Source: Candidatus Eiseniibacteriota bacterium (GTDB lineage Bacteria; Eisenbacteria; RBG-16-71-46). Taken from it: a stretch of DNA of 58,891 nucleotides. The notes below the pieces were generated by a model, which saw only the letters and a program-made list of their open reading frames with translations, did not search any database and was not told the DNA's origin. Positions 20,700-36,898 of this stretch are shown here, piece by piece. The first letter of the stretch is position 1. Every line of letters begins with the position of its first letter. The stretch lies in assembly GCA_025360715.1 (NCBI GenBank), contig JANYBS010000235.1, positions 1 to 58,891 of the forward strand, written 5' to 3'. The translations under genes and the position numbers were made by a program.

Positions 20700-23600
20700 C
20701 TAGTTCGCGGCCTTCGCGGGCACGTCGCTCTTGGCGCCCTTCGGCGCGCGCGGCTGCGCTGGGGCTGCGTGCGCGGTGGCCAGTGTGGCGCTCTGGATCT
20801 CGGAGAAGACCTCGTCGCCCTGCTGCGTCATGGCGCTCACGTACCAGCGCGTCTGGCCCTGGCCGTCGAACGCGTTGAGCGGGAAGACGCTGGCGACGAC
20901 CGTGCCATTGGGGCCGCGCATGACGTTCATCGGATAGCGGCGCCACAGGCCTTCGGTCGCGCGCACGTGCAGCCACGACTCTCGCACATCGGTGGGCTGC
21001 AGGTTCTCGAGTTGCGCCGAGATGAGCGTCGTGGCATTGGCGGGCATCACGCGTTGCGGAGCCAGCAACGTCACGTGCGCCGTCTCGATCTCAAGGCCGA
21101 AGTTGAACGTGGCGAAGCGCTGGTTGCCGCCCGGCAGGTCGATCACCTGCACGGGGGCGGTCTCACCGTGCCAGGTCAAGCGCAGGCTGTGCGGGCCGCG
21201 CGGCAGCTCGAGCGAGACCGGCGTGCTGCCGCGCAGCTCGCCATCGACGAACACCTGCGCGCCCGAGAGCGCCGAGGCGCCCTGCTCATCGTTGAGCAGC
21301 GCCTGCGCCTGGATCACGCCGTTCGCCGGCGCGGCCATGGGATGCGCGACCAACTGCGCCGTGCGACGAACACCCACTTGGATCGTCTGCGCCCACGCCG
21401 GCATGCCCGGGCCGCTGAACTGCACCTCGTGCAGACCCGGCGCGATCGACTCAAGCTTGACCGGCGCGTAACCCTGCGGCTTGCCGTCGACGGCGACGGC
21501 GATGGGCACTCCGGAGTCGGCGGCGAAGATCTCGAGGTCGCCGTTGAGCGTCTGGTCCAATGCGACCTTCTGGTTCTTCTCGCCACGCACGGGGAACTTC
21601 GCGCTACCCAGATCGGTGAGCGTGAGGGTGACCATGTGTTCGCCGGGCGCGAGTTCTAGCTTGGCCGGCGTGCGCTTGGCGACGTCCTTGCCATCGATGG
21701 CGATCCACGCGCCCGGCGGATCGCTGTCGATCGCAGCGGTGAAGCGCGGCGCGCCGAGTCCCACCGCGCGCGCCAGGCGCGCGAGCGGCCCCGGTTCGTC
21801 CTTGTTGGCGCTCTGCATGCCACCCAGCCACCAGCCAAGCGCGAAGAGCACCACGATGAGACTGCCCCACGCCCACGGCTTGCGATACCACGCAGAAGGC
21901 GCCTTGAGTTCTTCTGGGCTCGGCCACGAAGCACGCACGGCTCCAGCAGGACGCGCCCCGCTCGCGGCGGCGCGCGCCGGCGAACTCGGCGTGAGCTCGA
22001 AGGGGGGCTCGCTTGCATCAGCACGCGGCGCCGCCGCCACGTTAAGCACGGGCGGCGCCGTGGGCGGCACCATCACACGCAGCACCGGCGGCGCGCTGGG
22101 CGCGGCCTCGGGAATGCGCAGTTGCGGCGGCGCGACGGGCGCCTCGGGCGAGGCGGCGCGCACGGCGGCGAGCTGCTCCGGCAGCGGCGCGACCGACGAC
22201 GGCGTGACTGCGAGCGGCGGCGCGGTCGTTTCGCGCGGCAGCTCCACGCGCAACACCGGCGGCGCCGCAGGCGGCTGCGGACGCACGGGCACCTGCGGGA
22301 TGGCGAACGTCTCGTGCGCACCGACCGGTTCGTGGTCCACGCTCACCGGCGCGGCAGGATCGCTCGTGAGCATCGGCGGTGAGATCACCGGCAGGCTCGC
22401 AACCTCGGCGTCGCTCATCTGCGCGGCGGTCGCTGCAGCGGGCGGGCTCGGCGCGGTCACCGAAGGCGCAGGAGCGCTCGCAGCCGGCGCGCTCGCAGCG
22501 GCGCTGAACATGCTGGCGAACGTCGCGGGAGCGAGCTTGGAATCGAGCGCAGGCAGTGGCGCAGGCGTCGGCTCAGGCGCGGCGAGCGCGAGTGGCGGCA
22601 TCGGCGCGAGCGCGCTGGAGCGCGCGGACGCAGACACGGAGGCGGGATCAAGCGTGGATGCGACCGGCGCGGCGGGCGGCTGCGCCTCGAGCGCGGCGGC
22701 GTGCGCATGTGCCGCGGACTCGCGCTCGGCGACATCGCCCCCGAATGACGCCGCCATGAGTTCCTGCTCATCGGCGCTGAGCGATTCGTCGTGCAGCAGC
22801 GTCTCGGGGGCGTCCTGCGCAGCGAGCGAGGGATCCTCCCATGCGATCGCGGCCTGCTCGTGCGCGATCGTGACCGGCTCGTTCGGCTCCGCAGGCACGG
22901 ATGCCGAGAGCAGCGAGTCGTACGCCGAGAGCGGCGCGGGCTGATCGCCGTAGAGCGGCGCGGACTCGGCGGTGGCATTCGCGGTGCCCTCGGCGGCAGG
23001 CAGCATCTGAGGCGGATCGCGATCGTCCTGCTCATCTTCTTCAGCGTGCGGTTTGCGGCCCCAGCTCAGGAGACGGTTGAGCCAGCGACCCACCGGGTGA
23101 GCGGCGCGCGCGGGCTGCTCGGCGGCCTCCGGCTCGAAGGCCGGCGGCTCCGGCGCGAAGAGCGCGGAAGCTGCAGGCTCGGATGCCGCGGCGGCAATGT
23201 GGCTGGCAACGTGGCTGGCAACGTGGCTGGCAACGGTTGCATCGGCCTGCGGCGACGCGACCGCCACGTCGACTGCGAGCGGCTCCGCAGATGCCACCTC
23301 GCGCTCCAGCGGGCTCGACAGCCCTGGCTGGTGTTGAGGCAACGCCTCGGGCAATGGCGCGACGGACGCCTGCGCGGGCTCCGGCATCACGGCCGGTTCG
23401 ATGCTCGCGCGCGCCGCTGCGACCTCGGCTGGCGCCTCGCTCCGGGCGACCGGCTGTGGCGCATCCTCGCGCGAAGCAGGCGCGGCATCCTCGACGCCGG
23501 CGGCCGACCACTCGGCCTCGACAGCCGCGGGCGCCGCGAGTTCGCTATCGCCCTGCGGCCAGTGATCGAGCGAGACCATGACGTGCGTGCTGCCCTCGAA

Positions 23601-24044
23601 GAGGAACGCACGCGCCTCGCGGCCTTCTTCGTCGCGCACCCGCACCCACAGCGGCTCGAAAGGTTCACCGTCGCGCAGCACCTGCACACGGGCTTCGCCG
23701 ACCCAGCCGAAGGCGCCACCGGAAGGCGTGTCGACGAACGCAACGGAGCACGGGCCGCTCTCGCCTTCGCGATGCCACAGTTCGGCATGCGAGAAGAGCA
23801 AGCCGGTGAGGGCATGATGGAGGATCGCCGGGATCGCGCGTACGCGCATATCGGTGGCCGAGGTCTCGCGGGCGACGCCGGCCAGATCGTGCAGCCAGCC
23901 TCCCACCTCGGCGGGCGTGAAGCCGGCAGGCACACCGAGCAAAACGAGTTCCAGCTCGCCGGCGGACATGCCGGCGGTGAGGACTTCCCCGTGCGTGCGG
24001 GTCGTGACCACCCAACGAAGGGCGGTGTTACCGGCGAGGGTCAT
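20700..24044 (-). CDS. large single-pass PEGA-domain protein with disordered linker
   Basis: A 1114-residue protein. Residues 1-180 form a folded N-terminal domain I do not recognise (ends SLDHWPQG). A long Ala/Pro/Glu-rich linker (about 180-720) includes a threefold VASH repeat and several RVELP/RVMVP-like short motifs. One transmembrane helix (about 722-742, WGSLIVVLFALGWWLGG) follows. Then come three PEGA-type beta modules: PPGAWIAIDGKD at about 775, GVPIAVAVDGKPQGYAPVKL at about 840, and GAQVFVDGELRGSTPVSLEL at about 930. A final beta-sandwich (980-1090) ends the protein. Topology: N-domain cytoplasmic, PEGA side outside. PEGA modules are often found with bacterial Ser/Thr kinases, as here. 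A 10-codon leader ORF overlaps its start. Confidence 0.85.
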   Translation of the reverse strand: MTLAGNTALRWVVTTRTHGEVLTAGMSAGELELVLLGVPAGFTPAEVGGWLHDLAGVARETSATDMRVRAIPAILHHALTGLLFSHAELWHREGESGPCSVAFVDTPSGGAFGWVGEARVQVLRDGEPFEPLWVRVRDEEGREARAFLFEGSTHVMVSLDHWPQGDSELAAPAAVEAEWSAAGVEDAAPASREDAPQPVARSEAPAEVAAARASIEPAVMPEPAQASVAPLPEALPQHQPGLSSPLEREVASAEPLAVDVAVASPQADATVASHVASHVASHIAAAASEPAASALFAPEPPAFEPEAAEQPARAAHPVGRWLNRLLSWGRKPHAEEDEQDDRDPPQMLPAAEGTANATAESAPLYGDQPAPLSAYDSLLSASVPAEPNEPVTIAHEQAAIAWEDPSLAAQDAPETLLHDESLSADEQELMAASFGGDVAERESAAHAHAAALEAQPPAAPVASTLDPASVSASARSSALAPMPPLALAAPEPTPAPLPALDSKLAPATFASMFSAAASAPAASAPAPSVTAPSPPAAATAAQMSDAEVASLPVISPPMLTSDPAAPVSVDHEPVGAHETFAIPQVPVRPQPPAAPPVLRVELPRETTAPPLAVTPSSVAPLPEQLAAVRAASPEAPVAPPQLRIPEAAPSAPPVLRVMVPPTAPPVLNVAAAPRADASEPPFELTPSSPARAAASGARPAGAVRASWPSPEELKAPSAWYRKPWAWGSLIVVLFALGWWLGGMQSANKDEPGPLARLARAVGLGAPRFTAAIDSDPPGAWIAIDGKDVAKRTPAKLELAPGEHMVTLTLTDLGSAKFPVRGEKNQKVALDQTLNGDLEIFAADSGVPIAVAVDGKPQGYAPVKLESIAPGLHEVQFSGPGMPAWAQTIQVGVRRTAQLVAHPMAAPANGVIQAQALLNDEQGASALSGAQVFVDGELRGSTPVSLELPRGPHSLRLTWHGETAPVQVIDLPGGNQRFATFNFGLEIETAHVTLLAPQRVMPANATTLISAQLENLQPTDVRESWLHVRATEGLWRRYPMNVMRGPNGTVVASVFPLNAFDGQGQTRWYVSAMTQQGDEVFSEIQSATLATAHAAPAQPRAPKGAKSDVPAKAAN

Positions 24045-24073
24045 CTTGCGAGGAACATCCTTGCGAGGAACAT
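24041..24073 (-). CDS. 10-codon leader ORF coupled to the PEGA gene
   Basis: Reads MFLARMFLAR followed by TGA. The TGA shares three bases with the ATG of the PEGA gene (ATGA at 24041-24044). An AAGGAG lies nine bases upstream of its ATG (24083-24088), whereas the PEGA ATG itself has no such site at normal spacing. The repeat in the peptide comes from a 15-base tandem duplication (24045-24074). This looks like translation-coupled loading of ribosomes onto the PEGA gene. An older in-frame start lost by frameshift is an alternative. Confidence 0.5.
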   Translation of the reverse strand: MFLARMFLAR

Positions 24074-24074
24074 C
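24045..24074. repeat. 15-base direct tandem duplication
   Basis: The unit CTTGCGAGGAACATC occurs twice with no spacer, at 24045-24059 and 24060-24074. It covers the whole leader ORF before the PEGA gene and preserves its frame. Confidence 0.9.
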
Positions 24075-24135
24075 CTAAGGGGCTCCTTCCCCAACAACGC
24101 ACCCAGCGCGGACAGGTGCCACGCGGCTCCTTGGC

Positions 24136-24165
24136 AAGCTAAGGCTTGGACAGTGCAAGTGTCAA
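24136..24165 (-). promoter_or_regulatory. candidate promoter of the PEGA gene
   Basis: TTGACA (24165-24160), an 18-base spacer, then TAGCTT (24141-24136) followed by GCC. The same -10 string and spacer length occur at the tRNA-Leu promoter. Predicted transcript start is near 24129, giving a leader of about 55 bases before the leader ORF. Confidence 0.6.
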
Positions 24166-26179: not shown

Positions 26180-27457
26180 CTAATGCATCGACTCCGGGCC
26201 ATCGACCACGCCGCCGCTGGGCACCGGCGCCGTGAAGTCGGCTTCCGTGACCGATGCGCCGATGCGCGCATTGCGGCCCACGGTGAGCCCTTCAGGGATG
26301 CGCGCTTCCTTGCCGACGACCACGAGCCCGCTCGAGAGATGTTCCGGACAGGCGCGGTTCGGTGACATGTCATCGCCGTGGCCGATGCGCGCACCGGCGC
26401 CGATGATGACCTCTTTGTCGAGGATCGCCCGCTCCAGATGCGCGCCGGGGCCGATGAGCGTGTCGTGCATGACGATGCTGTCGCGCACGACCGCGCCCGC
26501 AGCGACGGTCACGCCCGGGAACAGCACCGAGTTGATGACCTCGCCCGCCACGCGGCAGCCATTGGCCACCATCGAGTGCGTCACGCGCGAGCCGTGCTCG
26601 AAGCGCACCGGTGCGCGGTCCGCACTCTGCGTGTGGATGATCCACGACGGATCGTGCAGGTCGAGCGGCGGCTTCTTGCCGAGAAACGCCAGGTTCGCGT
26701 CGTAGAACGAATCGAGCGTGCCCACATCCTGCCAGTACTCGCGGAACGGATACGCGAACACCCCTTCCCCGCGCTCGACCAGCCGCGGGATGATGTCCTT
26801 ACCGAAGTCATGAGAGGAGCCCGGCATGCCGGCATCCTCGACGAGCCAGCGGATGAGCGCCTCGCGGTCGAAGAGGTACACGCCCATGGACGCCATGCGC
26901 GAGGTGACCGGGCCCTTGGGCTTCTCCTTGAATGCCGTGACGCGGCCGGTCGCCTCGGTCTCGAGGATGCCGAACTGATCGACTTCGTCCTCGGGGACTT
27001 CGGTCACGGCGACGGTCAGCAGCGCGCGGTTCGCGCGATGGAACGCGTACAGGACGTTGTAGTCCATCTTGTACACGTGATCGCCCGAGAGGATGAGCAC
27101 TTCATCCACGCGGCGGCGCTTGAGATGCGTGAGGTTCTGGTAGATGGCGTCGGCCGTGCCCTGGTACCAGTCGAACTGCGCCGCGCCGGGCGCGGGCTGC
27201 AGCAGCTGGATGCCGCCGCGCGAGCGATCCAAGTCCCACGGGCGGCCGATGCCGATGTGTTGATTGAGCGAAGTCGGGCGGTATTGCGTGAGCACACCGA
27301 TATCGAAGATGCCGGAGTTCACGCAGTTCGAGAGCGCGAAGTCGATGATGCGGTACTTGCCGCCGAACGGCACTGCCGGCTTGGCGCGGCGCTCGGACAG
27401 CAAGCAAAGGCGGCTACCGACGCCGCCGGCGAGTACGAATGCATAGCGTCCGCTCAT
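26180..27457 (-). CDS. glgC: glucose-1-phosphate adenylyltransferase (GlgC), catalytic-type copy
   Basis: Makes ADP-glucose from ATP and glucose-1-phosphate for glycogen synthesis. It has 425 residues from the ATG at 27457, with GGAGCTGCG before it and a four-base overlap with the upstream paralogue. Seen: AGGVGSRL nucleotide loop, RAKPAVPFGGKYRIIDFALSN with Lys26 (equivalent to E. coli Lys39), catalytic Asp region LSGDHVYKMDY, glucose-1-phosphate Lys in FKEKPKGP, and a left-handed beta-helix end. The usual Arg of GGRGSRL is Val here. Second gene of a two-gene operon. Confidence 0.93.
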   Translation of the reverse strand: MSGRYAFVLAGGVGSRLCLLSERRAKPAVPFGGKYRIIDFALSNCVNSGIFDIGVLTQYRPTSLNQHIGIGRPWDLDRSRGGIQLLQPAPGAAQFDWYQGTADAIYQNLTHLKRRRVDEVLILSGDHVYKMDYNVLYAFHRANRALLTVAVTEVPEDEVDQFGILETEATGRVTAFKEKPKGPVTSRMASMGVYLFDREALIRWLVEDAGMPGSSHDFGKDIIPRLVERGEGVFAYPFREYWQDVGTLDSFYDANLAFLGKKPPLDLHDPSWIIHTQSADRAPVRFEHGSRVTHSMVANGCRVAGEVINSVLFPGVTVAAGAVVRDSIVMHDTLIGPGAHLERAILDKEVIIGAGARIGHGDDMSPNRACPEHLSSGLVVVGKEARIPEGLTVGRNARIGASVTEADFTAPVPSGGVVDGPESMH

Positions 27458-28725
27458 CGCAGCTCCTCGAACCAGCGACGGTTTCGCACGATCGTGCCTG
27501 TGCGAAGCAGACCGTCGGCGAAGTCTTCGTAGCGGCCACCCACACCCACCATCGACGGGCGCTCCATGCGGCCACCCGGCGGTATCCAGGCGTCTTTGCC
27601 CACCAGGCACAGGCCGTCGAGGAGCTCGGTCGCTTCGGACTCTGCTGGAGCCCCGCTTGCGGCATCGGCGCCGATCACCGCGCGCTCGCCGACGCGCACA
27701 TACTTGTCGAGGATCGCGCGGTCGATCACGGCCCCCGCCTCGATGCGCGTGTCGGCCATGATGACGCTGTCCTTCACCTCGGCGCCCGGACCCACGTATA
27801 CGCCTGGGAACAGGATCGAGCGCTGCACGCGCCCTTCGATGCGGCAGCCGTTGGCGATCAGGCTGTCGGCGATGTCGGCGCCCTCGGCCGCGACCACGGG
27901 CGGGCGCTCTTCGTCACGCGTCAGGATCGGCCAGCGTGAATCGCGCAGCAGGAAGCGCGGCTCGGTGGCGACGAGTTCCAGATTGGCGCGGTAGTACGAA
28001 CCCACGGTACCCACGTCCTCCCAGAAACCGTTGAACTCATGCGCGTACACGCGCTCGCCCGCTTCGACGAGCGGCCGCAGCACGTCGAGCACCAGATCGA
28101 CCGGGCGGCTGCGAAGCATCTCGCCGAGCACCTCGAAGTCGAACACGTATACGCCCATCGACGCGTGCGACGCGGCGCTGCGGTCGGGCTTCTCTTCGAG
28201 CGCGCGCACGCGGCCGCCGCGATCCATGGTGACCATGCCGAAGCGCTTGGTCTGATCGGCCGGCACGCGCGTGACCGCAAGCGTGACCGACGCGCCGCGC
28301 TGCTCGTGCGCCAGGAAGAGCGCGCGGTAGTCCATTCGGTACACGTGATCGCCCGAGAGCACCAGCACCTGATCGGGCCGGTGGTTCTCGATGAAGTCCC
28401 AGTTCTGCGTGATGGCGTCGGCAGTGCCGCGGTACCAGCCCGCATGACTGCGCGTCTGGTAGGGCTGCAGGATGTCGACCCCGCCCTGGCGGCGGTCCAG
28501 GTCCCACGGCCGGCCCGCGCCGATGTGATCGTTGAGCGAGGCTGGCGCGTGCTGCGCGAGCACGCCCACGCGCTCGATACCTGAGTGGCAGCAGTTGCTG
28601 AGCGAGAAGTCGATCACGCGGTACTTGCCGCCGAACGGCAGCGCACTCACGGCACGCTCGGCAGAGAGCACACCGAGCCGCTCGCCACCGCCGCCGGAGA
28701 GGATCAACGCCATCACATTGCGCAT
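27454..28725 (-). CDS. GlgC paralogue, possible regulatory subunit
   Basis: A 423-residue adenylyltransferase homologue with start at 28725 (GGAAGG upstream). An earlier frame start adds 36 unconserved residues. It keeps SGGGGERL, PFGGKYRVIDFSLSNC, LSGDHVYRMDY and an EEKPD Lys region. The RAKPA motif is RAVSA: Val26 and Ser27 replace the Lys-Pro pair that touches the activator and nucleotide in catalytic GlgC. By analogy with GlgD of Firmicutes and the large plant subunit, it may be a modulatory partner in a heterotetramer with the neighbouring copy. Equally it may have a different allosteric site. Confidence 0.88.
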   Translation of the reverse strand: MRNVMALILSGGGGERLGVLSAERAVSALPFGGKYRVIDFSLSNCCHSGIERVGVLAQHAPASLNDHIGAGRPWDLDRRQGGVDILQPYQTRSHAGWYRGTADAITQNWDFIENHRPDQVLVLSGDHVYRMDYRALFLAHEQRGASVTLAVTRVPADQTKRFGMVTMDRGGRVRALEEKPDRSAASHASMGVYVFDFEVLGEMLRSRPVDLVLDVLRPLVEAGERVYAHEFNGFWEDVGTVGSYYRANLELVATEPRFLLRDSRWPILTRDEERPPVVAAEGADIADSLIANGCRIEGRVQRSILFPGVYVGPGAEVKDSVIMADTRIEAGAVIDRAILDKYVRVGERAVIGADAASGAPAESEATELLDGLCLVGKDAWIPPGGRMERPSMVGVGGRYEDFADGLLRTGTIVRNRRWFEELR

Positions 28726-28778
28726 CGGGTCCGCCTTCCATGAGCTTGTGTGCGCGAAGAAAGATGAGAACGCTACGG

Positions 28779-28808
28779 ACACTAATGAAGCGCCCTCGGC
28801 CCGGTCAA
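28779..28808 (-). promoter_or_regulatory. candidate promoter of the glgC pair
   Basis: TTGACC (28808-28803), an 18-base spacer, TAGTGT (28784-28779). The predicted transcript start is near 28772, with a 47-base leader before 28725. The -35 lies mostly in the loop, and the spacer in one arm, of the hairpin that ends the PorV-like gene. Confidence 0.5.
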
Positions 28809-28824
28809 CTACCGGGCCGAGGGC
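28792..28824 (-). terminator. hairpin terminator of the PorV-like gene
   Basis: A perfect 13-base stem (GCCCTCGGCCCGG / CCGGGCCGAGGGC) with a 7-base loop, 23 bases past the PorV-like stop on the minus strand. There is no long T-run after it. The glgC promoter overlaps it. Confidence 0.7.
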
Positions 28825-28847
28825 GGAAGACATTGCTGGAATAGCGG

Positions 28848-30050: not shown

Positions 30051-30678
30051 CCGGTGTCGGCACCGGCTTCCACTCCGGCCAGCTCGCATTGCCGAGTGGC
30101 TGCGCGATACGCCATTCGCCGCGTAGACGTACCAGTTCGCTGCCGGTCTTGAACATGCGTTCCTCGAAGACTCCCTTCGGCCGGTAGTGCACCTCATAGG
30201 ACACCATCACGCGGCCCGCCGTCACGGGCAGCGAATGGAAACCCTGTAGCCACAACTCGTCCGTCGGCGGCAGGAACCACAATGCACCCGGTTCGGGCAG
30301 GTCGTGACGCCCCTCCACGAAGCATTCGAATGCCGTATCGCCATCATCGTGGCGCAACGCGGACCAGTACGTATGAAGCGTGGAACTGGGCGAGCGAAAG
30401 CGCGGATCGACGCGGCAGCGCTCCCCCTGACCGAGAAGGCTGACGCAAGCGAGGAACAGCCACACGAAGTGCATCGGGCGAAGCGTGCTGCGCAGCGGCG
30501 CGGCAGGGACTTCCGCCGACGGTACGAACGGTTCTACCCCGTCCACCCCGGTGGGCGTTCCCTGTTTCTCGATCTGTTTCTCGATCTGTTTCTCGGTCTG
30601 GTTCTGGACCAGCTCAGCGTCGCGATGCAGGAGGTCGAGTCGCAAGTGCGCGTGCCTGAAGTTGCCGGCGGCGTCCAT
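30040..30678 (-). CDS. protein of unknown function, probably frameshifted at its 5' end
   Basis: A 212-residue frame I cannot assign. From residue 69 it could be a secreted protein (MHFVWLFLACVSLLG, then mature RFRSPSSTLHTYWSALRHDDG). The C-terminus (WRIAQPLGNASWPEWKPVP) resembles small conserved lipoprotein-like domains that measure stress-type phenotypes, but no match is certain. A 12-base repeat encodes the QIEK tripling. Third-codon-position GC shows coding in a different frame upstream (ATG at 30814, MPGANLVLADRQRG), shifting near 30715-30735. The real gene probably starts at 30814, 25 bases after rluB. It may be a true pseudogene or an assembly indel at a CCCGGG run. Confidence 0.55.
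   Translation of the reverse strand: MDAAGNFRHAHLRLDLLHRDAELVQNQTEKQIEKQIEKQGTPTGVDGVEPFVPSAEVPAAPLRSTLRPMHFVWLFLACVSLLGQGERCRVDPRFRSPSSTLHTYWSALRHDDGDTAFECFVEGRHDLPEPGALWFLPPTDELWLQGFHSLPVTAGRVMVSYEVHYRPKGVFEERMFKTGSELVRLRGEWRIAQPLGNASWPEWKPVPTPVDI
30562..30597. repeat. 12-base tandem repeat, three copies
   Basis: Unit CTGTTTCTCGAT, perfect twice and with one change in the third. In the minus-strand frame it encodes QIEKQIEKQ. Confidence 0.85.
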
Positions 30679-36806: not shown

Positions 36807-36836
36807 AGGATATCCGAGGCAGGCTGCGAGGGTCAA
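36807..36836 (-). promoter_or_regulatory. candidate promoter of trpS-scpAB operon
   Basis: TTGACC (36836-36831), an 18-base spacer, TATCCT (36812-36807). The transcript would start near 36800, giving a leader of about 225 bases. The 12-base tandem repeat touches the -35 from upstream. Confidence 0.6.
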
Positions 36837-36898
36837 GGATTCCCCGCAGGATTCCCCGCAGGATTCCCCGCAGGATTCCCCGCACAGGATTCCCCGCA
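36837..36898. repeat. 12-base tandem repeat, five copies
   Basis: GGATTCCCCGCA occurs four times in perfect tandem (36837-36884), then CA, then a fifth copy (36887-36898). It abuts the trpS -35 box. Confidence 0.92.

Follow-up and report, generated by a model that had tools for sequence, protein, structure and literature searches.

A ten-codon leader ORF at a PEGA-domain gene, probably a by-product of start-site duplication, and its predicted translational coupling

The window, meaning the whole 58,891-nt stretch of DNA analysed here, belongs to a 4.29-Mb draft genome in 253 contigs and carries on its minus strand a gene for a PEGA-domain protein preceded by a short leader ORF. The features of this locus are as follows:

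20700-24044, minus strand: gene for a PEGA-domain protein of 1114 aa (Pfam PF08308, 4.2e-21), with the start at 24044 supported by orthologue N-termini.
24041-24073, minus strand: leader ORF MFLARMFLAR*, with final sense codon AGA and stop TGA within an ATGA shared with the PEGA gene.
24045-24073, minus strand: 29-nt insert (15 + 14) reaching from the presumed ancestral start position to the PEGA ATG, found in no orthologue (alignment A1, 16 orthologue upstream regions).
24045-24076, minus strand: exact 15-nt tandem repeat (AGGATGTTCCTCGCA x2 + AG), from TRF and a tandem scan.
24079-24092, minus strand: GGGG-AAGGAG-CCCC, a potential 4-bp hairpin with the Shine-Dalgarno (SD) sequence in an ANGGAN hexaloop; ancestral SD of the PEGA gene.
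24083-24088, minus strand: SD sequence AAGGAG, 9 nt 5' of the leader ATG and 38 nt 5' of the PEGA ATG.
24136-24165, minus strand: promoter-like site read from the sequence, TTGACA (24165-24160), an 18-nt spacer and TAGCTT (24141-24136).

Along the minus strand, TTGACA-18-TAGCTT is followed by GGGGAAGGAGCCCC (24092-24079), TTAGG and then the leader, whose codons are ATG TTC CTC GCA AGG ATG TTC CTC GCA AGA TGA, with the ATG at 24073-24071. The leader stop (TGA, 24043-24041) overlaps the PEGA ATG (24044-24042). An earlier sequence-only reading of this DNA had described AAGGAG as positioned for the leader ATG rather than the PEGA ATG, the leader TGA as overlapping the PEGA ATG, and a 15-base duplication as doubling the peptide to MFLARMFLAR without a break in frame. 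This anatomy was borne out throughout: the SD lies 9 versus 38 nt from the two starts, ATGA occupies 24044-24041, and the repeat extends without mismatch over 32 nt (24045-24076).

The position of the PEGA start was examined from both sides. Upstream of 24044, the PEGA frame reads DVPRKDVPRK and is preceded by an in-frame TAG (24077-24075); no start codon in this frame lies between the TAG and 24044. The leader-less upstream start that the sequence-only reading had named as evidence against its proposal was thus looked for and not found 5' of 24044, and no orthologue has a PEGA frame running through the leader, since none has the leader. The start at 24044 is supported by the orthologues, all of which have 10 to 11 residues before an invariant Trp. 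A GTG at codon 12 was rejected as the start, as it has no SD and lies past this Trp. The N-terminal region of the protein (23526-24044, minus strand, ~170 aa) is itself conserved, with invariant W11, G19, G116 and W133. No Pfam family matched this region of the window protein, whose motif ...FGWVGxAxVxVxxDG... bears a faint resemblance to a degenerate PP2C-type phosphatase.

Pairing energies were calculated with an assumed conserved 16S tail (ACCUCCUUA), the tail itself not being read from the genome. On this assumption, SD pairing amounted to -8.0 kcal/mol for the leader ATG, -3.4 (16 nt) to -5.5 (22 nt) kcal/mol for the PEGA ATG, and -6.1 to -11.8 kcal/mol for the orthologous PEGA starts. 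A weak AAGG lies 14 nt 5' of the PEGA ATG. The leader therefore has what is expected of the upstream member of a coupled pair, namely its own start signal and an overlapping stop, and the PEGA ATG, under the same assumption about the 16S tail, is a downstream start without strong independent initiation. The pairing that does exist 5' of the PEGA ATG would allow direct initiation at 24044 through AAGG/GGAUGUU 9 to 14 nt upstream, or an SD-independent start, with the leader irrelevant. We regard this as quite unlikely, because the orthologous starts pair more strongly and ribosomes should be loaded first at the leader ATG, which has a strong SD at a distance of 9 nt.

We compared the locus with 16 other genomes of the same family that encode the PEGA gene, 15 of which have a recognisable upstream region; the sixteenth encodes a PEGA protein of 28% identity and has no recognisable upstream element. 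The nearest relatives are ~60-64% identical in the PEGA protein, and the set holds no second genome of the window species. In two family genomes, G002 and G006, no start of the PEGA gene was seen, and in both a contig end truncates the lytic transglycosylase gene next to it; a protein search of genome contigs added no further relatives. The leader ORF was absent from all 15 recognisable upstream regions, including those of same-genus relatives. Their common layout is a TTGACA...TAG-type promoter, about 60-75 nt, the SD region and the PEGA start. The SD region reads GGGGAGGGA(A/G)CCCC in nearly all of the 15, followed by 0-7 nt and the ATG or GTG of the PEGA gene; it is altered in G014, G005 and G007. 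A promoter-like TTGACACTTG...TAGC is likewise conserved in nearly all orthologues at a similar distance 5' of the SD. In its longer form, TTGACACTTGC...TAGCTTG (24136-24165, minus strand), this element is strongly conserved across the family, and its spacing to the PEGA SD is similar throughout.

Alignment A1 showed a single clean insert in the window, directly 3' of the conserved SD and unique to the window. The distance from the -35 element to the SD is 73 nt in the window versus 75 nt in the nearest relatives. Because this distance is nearly unchanged, the insert is confined between the SD and the start, and the leader ATG occupies the position of the ancestral PEGA ATG. The copies in the insert (ATG-TTC-CTC-GCA) and the PEGA start of the window (ATG-ACC-CTC-GCC) share the pattern ATG-N3-CTC-GC, and the PEGA start of the nearest relative reads AGG ATG AGT CTC GCC. 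Furthermore, ATGA or GTGA opens the PEGA gene in 12 of the 15 orthologues. The ATGA overlap is thus no sign of selection for coupling: the tetranucleotide is inherited, and an upstream ATG in one of the three frames stops there.

The repeat extends into the PEGA gene. TRF scored 2.9 copies over 24034-24076, a count explained by the PEGA start itself (24046-24033, AG-ATGACCCTCGCC), which is a degenerate third copy with one G fewer than the other two. The array appeared local in TRF and the tandem scan, and it exceeds chance, order-1 Markov shuffles giving 0-1 such arrays per window. The genome nevertheless has other arrays with units of 11-12 nt, mostly 12: counts of exact arrays with a period of 10-24 were 4 in the 59-kb window and 2 in 88 kb elsewhere in the same genome. 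At ~4 arrays per 100 kb, by our own estimate, a handful at start codons genome-wide is unsurprising. Short tandem duplications are denser in the window than in the other contigs sampled. Three near-perfect 12-nt arrays (23193-23235, 30562-30605 and 36836-36898) lie, respectively, inside the PEGA gene, in an ORF and 5' of a tryptophanyl-tRNA synthetase-like gene.

The third copy lacks exactly one G, and the spacing of 29 nt would need one more base to be in frame. Were the true population sequence 30 nt long here, or had a base been lost by assembly error, the PEGA protein would carry MFLARMFLAR before MTLAG and there would be no separate leader. The AGG that precedes the ATG in the nearest relative and the status of the genome as a single draft of 253 contigs are compatible with this. 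However, a ten-residue extension would be an outlier among orthologues with a uniform 10 to 11 residues before the Trp, and the site of the possible missing base is not a long homopolymer; we therefore consider this reading unlikely.

We judge it likely that a recent tandem duplication, local to the PEGA start site, produced the leader as a by-product and that the PEGA gene is now probably translated by termination-reinitiation. We infer the following order of events. The ancestral state would have been promoter, SD, 0-7 nt and PEGA ATG. The start segment AGG-ATG-N3-CTC-GC would then have been copied twice between the SD and the start, the junction with the native copy being shorter by one base, so that the old SD would now feed a new first ATG, 29 nt from the PEGA ATG and out of its frame. 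Ribosomes starting at the leader ATG would read ten codons and halt at the TGA inside the inherited ATGA of the PEGA gene. Restart of the ribosome or 30S subunit on the overlapping ATG would be the most likely outcome, aided by the weak AAGG 14 nt upstream.

In E. coli and archaea, ATGA overlaps are established sites of termination-reinitiation, and the degree to which an SD is required varies (PMC6728339). Such overlaps commonly support coupling, a downstream SD not always being essential (PMC6728339; PMC12548453), and a gene can receive ribosomes from a short ORF upstream of it (PMC12548453). In E. coli, removal of the downstream SD often lowers reinitiation by 60-90% (PMC6728339), so coupling to the PEGA gene may be inefficient. 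The last leader codon, AGA, is rare in the window genome (2.1 per 1000) and might slow termination, or hinder or regulate the reinitiation step. Coupling is nevertheless the best reading of the anatomy, with a strong leader SD, a weak PEGA SD and the ATGA overlap, and to this extent the sequence-only reading is supported. Its "clean design" is not, as the leader occurs in no relative and both the SD and the ATGA are inherited from the PEGA gene. Expression of the PEGA gene probably runs through a two-cistron arrangement that evolved naturally and by accident, and the leader peptide itself is probably not functional.

A regulatory or sensing role for the leader, as an attenuator or arrest peptide, or a slippage switch based on the repeat was also considered. 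The repeat is exact and its copy number could vary, and its units end in the rare Arg codons AGG and AGA (2.3 and 2.1 per 1000). However, the leader is missing from every orthologue, same-genus relatives included, adding or removing 15-nt units preserves the frame and so could not switch the PEGA gene on or off, the regional fold is no better than that of shuffles (z-score -0.40), and there is no slippery heptamer. We hold this explanation to be highly improbable, and the slippage-based control suggested earlier was not upheld. The same observations removed several candidate classes: frameshift fusion, as no slippery heptamer precedes the leader stop; a UTR-wide structural element, at the z-score given above; and regulatory leader peptides, for which neither conservation in orthologues nor an alternative RNA structure was found. 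Phase-variable repeat switches were likewise rejected, the 15-nt unit lying 3' of the promoter with the promoter-to-SD distance nearly unchanged. The leader is not a conserved control device but a peculiarity of one species and ordinary in kind, a uORF most likely coupled to the PEGA gene by reinitiation.

The arrangement resembles bicistronic coupling at -4 (ATGA) overlaps, in which a short ORF has its own strong SD, an overlapping stop and a weak downstream SD (PMC12548453, PMC6728339). It differs from known pairs of this type in that the leader visibly originates, in one species only, from duplication of the start of the gene that it precedes, and in that coupling is here a prediction. The nearest natural precedent is the insertion of MIRU elements at mycobacterial start codons, where an internal ORF is coupled at -4 nt (PMC12548453). 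In both cases repeat-derived sequence at a start codon gives a short ORF with a -4 overlap, and in the MIRU case expression survives the insertion; MIRU is a dispersed mobile element, whereas the window has a local 15-nt tandem duplication.

On our preferred reading, start-site duplication with predicted coupling, the locus clearly illustrates how a coupled uORF can arise in one or two steps, through a duplicated start that takes over the existing SD. Where a gene already opens with ATGA, roughly one of the three frames would yield a ready-made -4 overlap, and start-site duplication would be a simple way for bacteria to acquire uORFs neutrally.

The SD element GGGG-ANGGAN-CCCC is a more conserved feature of the locus than the leader, kept at the PEGA gene by most relatives and very rare elsewhere in these genomes. 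In the window genome (4.29 Mb), the pattern GGGGANGGANCCCC has two occurrences. In 20 family genomes, the exact GGGG-ANGGAN-CCCC gave 17 matches, 12 at the PEGA gene (in 12 genomes) and five elsewhere, versus 5 matches for the reversed control pattern. The second exact copy in the window genome (G000:C99:8316-8329, minus strand) immediately precedes an ftsA-like gene that starts with GTG; this gene, identified by reading its sequence, lies 5' of an ftsZ-like gene. When 84,980 species were scanned for the promoter and hairpin in combination, seven contigs were returned, all from the phylum Candidatus Eisenbacteria and all agreeing in length with contigs that carry the PEGA gene.

ANGGAN hexaloops are a known target of CsrA/RsmA (PMC7652899, PMC3791407), and the PEGA gene resembles the 5' UTRs bound by these proteins in its conserved GGGG-ANGGAN-CCCC over the SD. 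It differs from them in that only one such site was recognised and the helix showed no covariation, its stem being nearly invariant, which makes this a resemblance rather than proven membership. The ANGGA(N) motif lies in the hairpin loop over the SD, and CsrA is encoded in the window genome (1.6e-25), with a csrA gene in 18 of the 20 family genomes. Absence of CsrA was compared with loss of the hairpin: G014 has no CsrA and an altered SD, but G005 and G007 have CsrA and an altered SD as well. In isolation the SD hairpin folds at -7.0 kcal/mol; the longer UTR fold favours other pairings. CsrA control of the PEGA gene through this hairpin is accordingly put forward as a hypothesis, because the stem is too invariant for covariation and the longer fold does not favour the hairpin.

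If such control existed across Candidatus Eisenbacteria, the hairpin would here have been captured by the newborn leader ORF and would reach the PEGA gene only by termination-reinitiation. This extension is tentative and in our view rather doubtful; if true, it would mean that a regulatory site was relocated by duplication of a start codon. The lineage-wide conserved SD hairpin is a candidate CsrA target in an uncultured phylum. Elsewhere in the window, two adjacent glgC-like genes (glucose-1-phosphate adenylyltransferase type, by reading) occupy 26180-28833 on the minus strand, beyond the divergent lytic transglycosylase gene.
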